NCBI RefSeq assembly: GCF_017656155.1 | Contig: NZ_JACDOH010000004.1 | Coordinates: 124,001 to 188,000, forward strand | Source of the DNA: Thermosyntropha sp. | Lineage (GTDB): Bacteria; Bacillota; Syntrophomonadia; Syntrophomonadales; Syntrophomonadaceae | Reading direction: 5' to 3' | DNA: 64,000 nucleotides | Shown: positions 29,238 through 62,500 of the stretch, piece by piece | How the letters are laid out: each line of letters opens with the position of its first letter | Position numbering within the stretch: position 1 is the first letter of the stretch | Program-made: the position numbers and the translations under genes | The notes under the pieces: model-generated | Database searches by the model: none | Told to the model about the DNA's origin: nothing | Seen by the model: only the letters and a program-made list of their open reading frames with translations

Positions 29238-30227
29238 TTAAAACTTCTTTGCCTTTAATCTATTCATTAAGTTGACAAAAAGTGAACACTCCCGGTAATC
29301 CAAAAAATTTACCTTATCCCCTTCTTCCTTCATCCCTAACCAGATAATAAATTCATGCCCTAGAGGGCTGAAAAAAACTAAAACCGGCATAAAAAATTGC
29401 CATTTTGCAGCTAAAAAAGAGAAGCTCAAAAGAAGCAAACTAAAAACCAAAAGTCTTTTTGACGACTTTTTGCACCTTTCTTGAGGGCTATCAACAGTAG
29501 TTATTTCTCCATATCCCAAAACTGCCAAGACCGGCAAAATCTGATAATCTAAACTTCTTGCAAAATCCCCGGCATATCCGGGCAAAAGCGGCCACCAGTC
29601 AGGCATAAGGGAAACCCAGGAAAACTGATTATATCCTGTGCTCATCAGGACCATAAGAGGCAAAGGCCAAAACTTCTGAAGATTAAACCCTTCCCTTAAA
29701 ATTCCTTCCTTATTTACTTTTACCGAAACAGGTCCAAAAGCTCCATTAAAATAGATAAGCATACTCTCTACCAGATGCAAAACGGCCACCAAGGCCATAA
29801 GATGAGGAATATTTATGTCCGGATAGCCGGTTATAAGGCTTATCAAAGCTACTGCTCCTCCAGCATAAGCAAAACACAAATAACGTGGATTTATAAGCAT
29901 CAAAATAACTGCAGCTATCCAAAGCTGAACTATACCTATGGAAGCCAGGTCGATTCCAATAATTATAAGTAAAAAGCTACCCGCTATCCCTCCTAAAAAA
30001 CCACAAAAAGCGGACATTATCCCCTTTAAAATTGGGGACGGTTCTCGAATTAAAAAAATTAACCTGGAAGAAAAACCGCTTTCATCTGTTTTTTCAGAAG
30101 TCAGACGGAAATACTGCCAGATTATAAGAATCAGCAAAAGAATATATATGATAAGAAAAAGGGGCGAGGTAAACAAATTTTTGACTACCTGCCCCAACAA
30201 ATACCATAAACTAATAAATGCGCTCAA
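29238..30227 (-). CDS. Polytopic membrane protein beside Ctp protease
   Basis: The predicted protein has about eight hydrophobic segments and a cytoplasmic C-terminus. Its position beside a Ctp protease recalls the MinJ-like topology proteins of Firmicutes, but no PDZ domain follows the membrane part. The start is uncertain: the TTG at 30227 is chosen because GGAGG lies 8 bases upstream, and this removes an overlap with the ctp gene. Residues IREPSPI are encoded by a REP-like repeat inside the reading frame (30031-30062). Function is unassigned. Confidence 0.65.
   Translation of the reverse strand: MSAFISLWYLLGQVVKNLFTSPLFLIIYILLLILIIWQYFRLTSEKTDESGFSSRLIFLIREPSPILKGIMSAFCGFLGGIAGSFLLIIIGIDLASIGIVQLWIAAVILMLINPRYLCFAYAGGAVALISLITGYPDINIPHLMALVAVLHLVESMLIYFNGAFGPVSVKVNKEGILREGFNLQKFWPLPLMVLMSTGYNQFSWVSLMPDWWPLLPGYAGDFARSLDYQILPVLAVLGYGEITTVDSPQERCKKSSKRLLVFSLLLLSFSFLAAKWQFFMPVLVFFSPLGHEFIIWLGMKEEGDKVNFLDYRECSLFVNLMNRLKAKKF
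30031..30062 (-). repeat. REP-like repeat copy inside a coding sequence
   Basis: GGGGACGGTTCTCGAATTAA on the + strand is the conserved block of the intergenic repeat family, here within the membrane protein gene. It is read in frame as LIREPSPI without a stop. Confidence 0.75.
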
Positions 30228-30247
30228 ACAGATGACCTCCGCACATA

Positions 30248-31399
30248 TCAAAATATTTGCTTTTTAATAACCTCTACAGCCTTTTCCATCTGCAAATCCC
30301 TGTTCATGTCCTCCCCGTTTTTCACCTCATAATCGGGATGTATTCCTATTTCATTAATATCTGTTCCATCAGGGGTAAAATACTTCTGAGTCGTAAGCTT
30401 TAATGCTCCACCATCTCTCAAAGGATAAACCGTTTGCACCAAACCTTTGCCAAAAGTAGTAGTGCCTACAAGCAAAGCCCGGTTATTATCCTTTAAAGCC
30501 CCTGCCAAAATCTCTGCTGCACTAGCACTATCCTGGTTTATAAGGACTACCACAGGGACATCTACATTGCCTCCGGAAGATTCATATATTTCCTCATTTC
30601 CCTTGCCATCGGAAACGCTAACTATTTCCTTTCCTTTGTCTAAAAACAGACTGGCAATCGAAAGGGCTGCGTTAAAATCCCCGCCTCCATTATAGCGCAG
30701 ATCTAAAATAAGCCCTTTAATTTTCCTTTCCCGCAAAAGTTCATCTAAAGCATCAGCCATCTCTTCGGCTGAATGGGAATGAAATTGCTTTAAAGATATA
30801 TATCCTATCTTAGAAACTTCATCTATAACTTCATATTCTACCGAAGGAACATTTATGATCTCACGGATAATCTTAAACTCATATTCCTTACCTTCTGATT
30901 CCCGGAAAACCGTAAGCAAAAGCTGGGTTCCCGGATCACCGCGCATAAGGCTTACCACTTCATCCTGGGTCATATTCTGCACGCTTTCTCCATTTATCTT
31001 AAGAATAATATCCCCGTTTTTTACCCCCTTACGGTAAGCGGGCGTACCTTTAATTGGAGATATGATTTTAAATTTCCCTCTACTTTCTTCTAAAACATAA
31101 ACCCCTATACCGCCGAATTTTGCCTCCAACCTTATTCTAAGCTCTTCCCAGGTAGCTTTATCCAGATATTTGGAATATGGATCATGCAGGCTGTCGACAA
31201 TACCGGCTGTTGCACCTACAATCATTTGTTCTGTATCCGGCTCATATAACCCTTGAGTTTTTACAAGACTTACAACACTCAGCAAAGTTGCCAGATGATT
31301 CGCATTAGTAGCAAAAATCCAGATAAGGCTGGCCAGAGTCAAAAAACCTATAAGAGCAAAAAAAACAACAATCCCTTTCAAAAACCTGTTTTCTCTCAA
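30248..31399 (-). CDS. C-terminal processing peptidase (S41)
   Basis: The 383-residue protein has an N-terminal membrane anchor (FLKGIVVFFALIGFLTLASL), a PDZ domain (about 95-170, FKIISPIKGTPAYRKGVKNG) and the S41 catalytic core. The catalytic Ser is in NQDSASAAEILAGAL and the Lys in TTFGKGLVQTVYPL. Ctp proteases cut C-termini of exported proteins; CtpB in Bacillus acts in sporulation signalling. It sits downstream of the M23 hydrolase and FtsEX genes, suggesting a role at the envelope, but the substrate is not shown. Confidence 0.93.
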   Translation of the reverse strand: MRENRFLKGIVVFFALIGFLTLASLIWIFATNANHLATLLSVVSLVKTQGLYEPDTEQMIVGATAGIVDSLHDPYSKYLDKATWEELRIRLEAKFGGIGVYVLEESRGKFKIISPIKGTPAYRKGVKNGDIILKINGESVQNMTQDEVVSLMRGDPGTQLLLTVFRESEGKEYEFKIIREIINVPSVEYEVIDEVSKIGYISLKQFHSHSAEEMADALDELLRERKIKGLILDLRYNGGGDFNAALSIASLFLDKGKEIVSVSDGKGNEEIYESSGGNVDVPVVVLINQDSASAAEILAGALKDNNRALLVGTTTFGKGLVQTVYPLRDGGALKLTTQKYFTPDGTDINEIGIHPDYEVKNGEDMNRDLQMEKAVEVIKKQIF

Positions 31400-31477: not shown

Positions 31478-31652
31478 AACCAAGGGGATGATTTCTTCCG
31501 GTTCCAATAATAAACCAGAAAAACCATCCCCACAATTATTTCGAACCCAAAATACTTTTAAACTTCGGGACGGTTCTGAATTTAAAAACTGTTTCGATTC
31601 GAAATTGTTTTAAAATCGAGAACCGTCCCTAAATTAAAAGGTATTTCGAAGC
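31478..31652. repeat. REP-like repeat pair, inverted
   Basis: GGGACGGTTCT (31567-31577) and AGAACCGTCCC (31619-31629) face each other across 41 bases that include the TTTCGATTCGAAA palindrome; another TTTCGAAGCGAAA follows. The flanking 31480-31530 has worn copies (GGGGATG...CATCCCC). It lies between the M23 gene end and the ctp start. Confidence 0.75.
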
Positions 31653-45597: not shown

Positions 45598-45698
45598 TTT
45601 ACTTCGGGACGGTTCCGAAATCAAAAACCATTTCGAATCGAAACAGTTTTTAATTTGGGGACGGTTCTCGATTTTAAAAGAATTTCGTTTCGAACTAA
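45598..45698. repeat. REP-like repeat, two copies in tandem
   Basis: GGGACGGTTCC (45606-45616) and GGGGACGGTTCT (45657-45668) stand 52 bases apart in the same orientation, each followed by a TTTCGA(A/T)TCGAAA-like palindrome. A worn partial block (GGGACGGGTTTAAAG) lies near 45869. They occupy much of the 430-base divergent gap between flaG and the transporter. Confidence 0.8.
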
Positions 45699-61428: not shown

Positions 61429-62208
61429 TCAAAACTTCTGTGCTTTCTTCAATATATAACGGCTAACGCCGGTAATTTCCATGATAACCTTGTCGGGAAG
61501 CTTCGTTTTCTCCTTAAATTCCTTCAATGCTAAAAGCTTTTGCTCGTAAAGAAAAATATCGCCATTATCAACCAAGCCCTTTTCATTTATCAACTGCTCC
61601 CATAAAAGAACCGCCTCTTCCCTGTTCATCGGCTCATTTATATCGAAAAAATCCCCTTCGACCGACTGATTCATAAACCTAATATATTCTTCCCTAGCCT
61701 CTTCTTTTCCTGCCCCCAGTAAGCTTAAAAGCATATCGGTATCAACCAAGGAGAAAAAAGGATGCTTTTCGTCAAGATAACAGCCGTAGCTGCTCCACAT
61801 GTAGTCAGCAGGTCGTTGGACTAATCCTGCTTTTACCGGATTCTGATGAATATAGCGGGCTAAAGCTAAAAAATACCTGTCACTTTCCACATTTTCACTT
61901 TTAAATCTATCCTGAAAAAGATGTCCTATCCTTTCATGTTTATGGTTAAAATAAGATACATAACTTACTGCTATCCGCTTCATTACATCTGATAAATCTC
62001 TTCCGTTTTCGCCTATCATCATATGTATGTGATTGCTCATCAAACAAAATGCATAAAGATAAAATCCGGTCGCTTTCTTCTTAGCCTGCAGGGTTGAAAT
62101 AAAGCGCAGTCTATCCTCATCATCGTAAAAAATCGGCTTCTTCTCATTACCGCGCAAAATAACATGATAACAACCACTTCGACTCTTAACCCTTCTGCTC
62201 CTGGGCAC
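61429..62208 (-). CDS. REP-associated tyrosine transposase (RAYT)
   Basis: This Y1_Tnp-type HUH transposase has SRSGCYHVILRGNEKKPIFYDDEDR near the start, the HUH pair in MSNHIHMMIGE and the catalytic-Tyr region ALARYIHQNPVKAGLV followed by MWSSYGCYL. The C-terminal region (KTKLPDKVIMEITGVSRYILKKA) is helix-turn-helix-like. This is the layout of RAYTs, which nick and move REP sequences as single strands. The GTG start (62208) gives the usual MPRSRR start and has GGGAGGGG before it. REP-like copies lie on both sides. Confidence 0.93.
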   Translation of the reverse strand: MPRSRRVKSRSGCYHVILRGNEKKPIFYDDEDRLRFISTLQAKKKATGFYLYAFCLMSNHIHMMIGENGRDLSDVMKRIAVSYVSYFNHKHERIGHLFQDRFKSENVESDRYFLALARYIHQNPVKAGLVQRPADYMWSSYGCYLDEKHPFFSLVDTDMLLSLLGAGKEEAREEYIRFMNQSVEGDFFDINEPMNREEAVLLWEQLINEKGLVDNGDIFLYEQKLLALKEFKEKTKLPDKVIMEITGVSRYILKKAQKF

Positions 62209-62383
62209 CTCATCCCCTCCCAAATGCAACAGCCTAAACCCCTCTACCGCATGCTGCATCTCATCTGCATTTAAAAACCAATACTCTTAAAAGCTTAAAC
62301 TCCCCAGCTTTTGTGTATATTTTTCTATACGAAGGAAATATTGTCAAGAATTATGTTTATATCTCCTTGCTTTTCCAATTCTC

Positions 62384-62500
62384 CTGTAATTTGTAATTTG
62401 TGTAATTTGGGGACGGTTCTCGATTTTAAATCTGTTTCGATCCGAAATACTTTTAAATTTTAGAACCGTCCCCAAATTGAAAACTGTTTCGATTCGAAAG
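62384..62500. repeat. REP-like repeat, inverted pair upstream of the RAYT
   Basis: The 34-bp shared end (62387-62420) finishes in GGGGACGGTTCT. It is followed by TTTCGATCCGAAA and, inverted, AGAACCGTCCCC (62462-62473) with TTTCGATTCGAAA. GGGGACGGTTCT and its complement face each other over 41 bases, the same layout as at 31567-31629. The rest of 62209-62505 shows no gene. Confidence 0.85.

Follow-up and report, generated by a model that had tools for sequence, protein, structure and literature searches.

Module within the membrane-protein gene

We asked whether a sequence lying inside a membrane-protein gene of the window (the whole 64-kb stretch of Thermosyntropha DNA that was analysed) belongs to a dispersed repeat family, and how such an element could have come to be translated as part of a conserved protein. 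The gene, recognised by ORF reading and orthologue searches, occupies positions 29238 to 30251 on the minus strand and encodes 337 amino acids from a TTG start codon. An earlier note had located a REP-like repeat in this gene at 30031 to 30062, read as LIREPSPI without a break in the frame. Both points were borne out, as the ORF is open and includes these residues, and the repeat is a 32-bp module only a few bases away, at 30025 to 30056 (plus strand), when its bounds are set column by column from its agreement with 38 other units of its family. The module consists of an AT-rich arm, the 13-nt core GGGGACGGTTCTC (30034 to 30046, plus strand, located by pattern search), and a second AT-rich arm, and translation of 30024 to 30056 on the minus strand yields FLIREPSPILK, corresponding to codons 66 to 76 of the ORF. 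Note that the unbroken frame is weak evidence, because stop codons are absent from the 22-nt core in all six frames, and from the 32-nt module in four, and an open frame is therefore expected, save for the need of a net multiple of three.

A profile built from the 38 other units matched the in-gene copy at 30020 to 30056 with a score of 31.7 bits (E = 6e-9 for the window). All 13 core bases match, as do both arms, and the match ends symmetrically at 30025 and 30056. The module agrees with the family consensus at 27 of 32 positions, and 11 of the 38 other units score no higher. BLAST of a 101-nt stretch around the copy returned 25 other places in the genome, with E values from 8e-9 to 3e-4. The core 13-mer occurs in 22 exact copies in the 2.11-Mb genome versus 0 for the reversed pattern used as a control, and in 41 versus 3 at one mismatch; within the 64-kb window, 12 matches with up to two mismatches were found versus 0.52 expected. 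The in-gene repeat is a genuine member of a dispersed family, and chance is excluded as the source of its likeness.

The core of this dispersed family is the 11-mer GGGGACGGTTC, set between AT-rich arms. In a normal unit of about 53 nt, two mirror-image AT-rich arms enclose the 13-nt core and are followed by a small ATTTCGATTCGAAAT-type hairpin, and such units often stand in tandem or opposite a second core, with inverted pairs occurring elsewhere in the genome. The in-gene copy is 32 nt long and is missing the ATTTCGATTCGAAAT-type spacer hairpin (ATTTCG...CGAAAT) that follows the right arm, its edit distance from the spacer consensus being 9 versus 1 to 6 in all 38 other units. Therefore, we call it a solitary module, short of a full unit of the family. 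No partner core lies close by, the nearest cores (up to two mismatches) being about 1.5 kb off at 31566 and 31618, and no target duplication around the module was seen by eye.

It had also been proposed that these repeats mostly avoid coding sequence, and this proved correct here. Only one of the 41 genome cores, the in-gene copy at 30034 to 30046, is enclosed by an ORF with homology support, and within the window one of nine copies lies inside an ORF, although ORFs occupy 88% of its length. Any spanning open frame of at least 60 aa was found for 12 of the 41 cores; the two longest of the other frames were checked individually, and the remaining nine (61 to 125 aa) were dismissed on length and codon score alone. 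One copy rejected as intragenic (L054) sits in a 298-aa stop-to-stop frame (286 aa from a start codon) with a poor codon score, which adjoins an ORF that we take to be SelA-like. Another, at 45657, falls in a 119-aa ORF overlapping, in a different frame, a shorter ORF that is presumably of the flagellar type. Both of these frames were judged to be spurious.

Orthologues and topology of the host protein

An orthologue search with the membrane protein gave hits in 62 of 101 genomes, its own included, and 44 loci were retrieved from named genomes; a plasmid search with the gene gave no match. The closest orthologue, from the sister species Thermosyntropha lipolytica DSM 11003, is ~60% identical in protein, and a gene row of S41 protease, membrane protein, and ATPase-like protein (the ATPase label was assigned by reading) is common to the window and this species. 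A C-terminal PDZ domain is present in both longer orthologues tested and is missing from the window protein and from that of T. lipolytica. Because the short form is common to T. lipolytica, the PDZ loss looks genus-wide.

The segment running from WQYxRL to GG is 36 aa long in 49 of 58 distinct orthologues and 35 to 37 aa long in 55 of them, versus 44 aa here, and the outliers measure 33, 34, and 28 aa, one each, with the last belonging to T. lipolytica. The core (up to one mismatch) occurs inside the gene in 0 of 73 orthologue loci, with 18 matches elsewhere in those loci. Thus, within the set compared, only the window gene has the repeat, and only it has the eight additional residues. The proposal of an insertion with reading-frame tolerance stands in so far as these length and core counts mark the repeat as derived here, but the open frame itself adds little proof given that six frames are open. 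An in-frame capture that would be private to the window lineage is supported by this comparison of sequences.

An alignment of orthologues, which the earlier note had suggested would reveal a gap at IREPSPI, does contain a length gap of 8 aa in relatives, but this gap is best placed upstream and is not pinned to those residues. A gap-placement scan favours EKTDESGF, just upstream of IREPSPI, over IREPSPIL, by an indecisive margin of 5.5 averaged BLOSUM units. All three MAFFT modes open a family-wide gap upstream of the repeat, and one mode adds a one-residue gap nearer to it. Given this unsettled placement of the eight residues, those adjoining the repeat may have been rearranged as well.

The core 13-mer is absent from the T. 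lipolytica genome. We considered whether this species is without the repeat family and rejected the idea, as 40 exact matches to the 11-mer GGGGACGGTTC are present there, those inspected having similar arms, and only the site in the membrane-protein gene is empty. Because this closest relative is so diverged in protein sequence and its loop is shortened, it shows neither the precise empty site nor the order in which the changes occurred. The T. lipolytica loop (L011 1495-2430) is 8 aa below the family, which mirrors the +8 of the window protein, perhaps by coincidence.

An AlphaFold2 model based on 30 aligned sequences (mean pLDDT 83.9) predicts helix 2 at residues 30 to 52 and helix 3 at residues 73 to 98, with pLDDT values below 50 for the predicted loop residues 57 to 67. 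The repeat-coded residues 66 to 76 span the end of this loop and the first turn of predicted helix 3, and the site is therefore not purely loop. Lysine plus arginine average 2.4 in loop 2-3 of the orthologues versus 0.1, 0.1, and 0.0 in loops 1-2, 3-4, and 4-5. By the positive-inside rule, loop 2-3 is probably cytoplasmic, which is a lean and not a result because loop 4-5, which would share that side in a protein whose helices all cross the membrane, carries no positive charge. The suggestion that the repeat falls in a cytoplasmic loop between membrane helices thus survives in part: the predicted loop between helices 2 and 3 is occupied and its side is favoured by the charges, but the insert enters helix 3 and the charge rule is not backed by every loop.

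Transposase and possible routes into the gene

A REP-associated tyrosine transposase gene (Y1_Tnp, 276 aa) lies at 61429 to 62259 on the minus strand (PF01797, 56 bits; NF047646, 87.1 bits versus a cut-off of 80) and is the only one found in the genome. A core search placed an inverted pair of cores adjoining this gene at 62409 to 62473. Thirty transposase loci were compared, drawn from this genome and related ones: the core (up to one mismatch) is present in the fetched stretch of 20, and inverted cores flank the gene on opposite sides in 13. The T. lipolytica transposase is 69% identical and has cores on both sides. No Pfam match at E values up to 10 was obtained for the C-terminal 143 aa of the window protein, whose length of 276 aa fits the long subclass. 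This transposase is presumed to mobilise the repeat family.

We favour the reading, with a probability of roughly 0.78, that a unit of the genome's own transposase-associated repeat family entered loop 2-3 of the conserved membrane-protein gene after the lineage split. A REP-associated transposase of the IS200/IS605-like kind would have brought the unit into this loop, which is probably cytoplasmic, after the window lineage separated from its known relatives, with a net length change of +8 codons (24 nt) relative to the orthologue family. As 32 nt does not divide into whole codons, either the repeat would have lost part of its length or the host gene some of its bases, during the entry or afterwards. 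The protein presumably tolerated the change, and the copy persisted, because the core is stop-free in any frame and the loop is variable in sequence. The persisting copy probably has no function.

The missing spacer bears on what was inserted. A full unit of about 53 nt or an inverted pair could have entered and later been reduced to the 32-nt module by deletions in frame and by sequence divergence under coding constraint, and this possibility deserves tentative consideration because a recognisable spacer (edit distance 1 to 6) is present in 38 of 38 other units and not in the in-gene copy (9), and because singlets derive from doublets according to part of PMC3116915. However, the symmetrical ends of the match at 30025 and 30056 make a clean module likelier than random decay. 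Alternatively, repair or ectopic recombination, through short homology at AATT ends, may have introduced a copy of the module in place of some of the loop codons, with no transposition involved. The net gain of 24 nt versus a 32-nt module means that host bases were replaced or lost, which this route would accommodate, as it would the absence of a target duplication by eye. Nevertheless, it too deserves only tentative consideration, as neither a donor nor a junction speaks for it and IS200/IS605-type transposition likewise leaves no target duplication.

It is improbable that this GGGGACGG-type transposase can mobilise a bare 32-bp module, with neither spacer hairpin nor partner, and that such a module can enter coding DNA, which would make the family predisposed to donate peptide loops to the proteins of its hosts across Syntrophomonadaceae; the predisposition to supply short loops would follow from a core that is stop-free in six frames. 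The copy might also have been co-opted, altering the protein or acting as an RNA element in the row of S41 protease, membrane protein, and ATPase-like genes. The 92-nt mRNA stretch around the module folds somewhat better (-21.2) than mononucleotide shuffles that do not keep dinucleotides (-15.0, SD 2.9), but the module alone is unfolded in the mRNA sense (0.0), there is one copy in one genome, and the loop is poorly conserved, which together make co-option very unlikely. That the residues are ancestral and resemble the repeat by accident is scarcely credible, since the PREPLWPS read in the same loop of two distant orthologues (L106 and L109) is one column off and encoded by genes without the core, whereas the window copy matches in 13 of 13 core bases and both arms (E 6e-9) in a segment 8 aa above the family.

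Comparison with known repeat systems

REPs within genes are already in print, and the entry of a family unit into loop 2-3 is a clear further case of a known kind. In the relevant parts of PMC3733652 (Di Nocera et al. 2013), GTAG and CGTC REPs are described as mostly intergenic, with a minority in several species lying wholly inside ORFs and being translated, and flexible loops or linkers are suggested to tolerate them. Those intragenic repeats are likewise short, palindromic, and mostly intergenic as a class, but they differ in having GTAG/CGTC where the family here has a GGGGACGGTTC core and AT-rich arms. CGTC REPs, as that account presents them, have no transposase association and possess an 8-9 bp stem with a CGTC end and a CCA tail, whereas the family here adjoins transposases; the comparison of stem and tail was visual only. 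A transposase gene with adjoining repeats, as in classical REP/RAYT systems, is present here, but GTAG/GTGG at the hairpin foot (as defined in sections of PMC6006769) is absent from the 38-unit consensus. The REP-like label given earlier is thus apt for a palindromic family with a RAYT gene and inapt with respect to the GTAG foot of classical REPs.

A closer likeness is offered by the TIRYT TIR repeats (TIRtrons), which portions of PMC3733652 and PMC6006769 (subclass 2.1) characterise by a GGGGWSAS motif and a long Y1 transposase. There, as here, a GGGG-type core flanks a long Y1 gene and copies are single, paired, or clustered. The core GGGGACGG matches GGGGWSAS at 7 of 8 positions, and the C-terminal helix-turn-helix of that group was not found here by Pfam. 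By its sequence, the family resembles TIR/TIRYT repeats with a GGGG core and not classical GTAG REPs.

Two other systems provide partial parallels. Rickettsia palindromic elements (Ogata et al. 2000), in the portion of the review PMC2229807 that treats them, are translated in frame inside conserved proteins, but they measure 105-146 bp and recur in many genes, versus one 32-bp unit in one gene here. REPINs, according to part of PMC3116915, are inverted REP-core pairs near a RAYT gene, with singlets that are held to derive from doublets; their two close inverted cores are unlike the in-gene singlet, and pairs of the present family exist elsewhere in the genome. A search of the full-text literature for GGGGACGGTTCT, and of the printed record for Thermosyntropha repeats, returned nothing relevant, and targeted literature searches over partial texts gave no description of in-gene copies of a GGGGACGG-core family or of such copies in Syntrophomonadaceae. 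With its clear bounds, the locus exemplifies the turning of repeat DNA into protein in Syntrophomonadaceae, here from a GGGGACGG-core type of repeat. By itself it reveals no new mechanism, and its use is as a case study in the spread of such repeats and in the kinds of site that can accommodate them.

The core GGGGACGGTTCTC is present in 34 of 61 genomes searched, its own included, and in the copies inspected in relatives the core is constant and the arms vary between genera. The genome also carries other GGGGACGGTTC-core repeats with different arms (GAAACA...TGTTTC and others), at L050 position 1500 (G000:C4:203819), L124, and L072-L075, and because the arms differ, it has more than one sub-family. 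Two near-identical copies, L060 and L061 (G000:C11:75100 and C14:36), lie within ~50 bases of contig ends, and the assembly may therefore break at the repeat.
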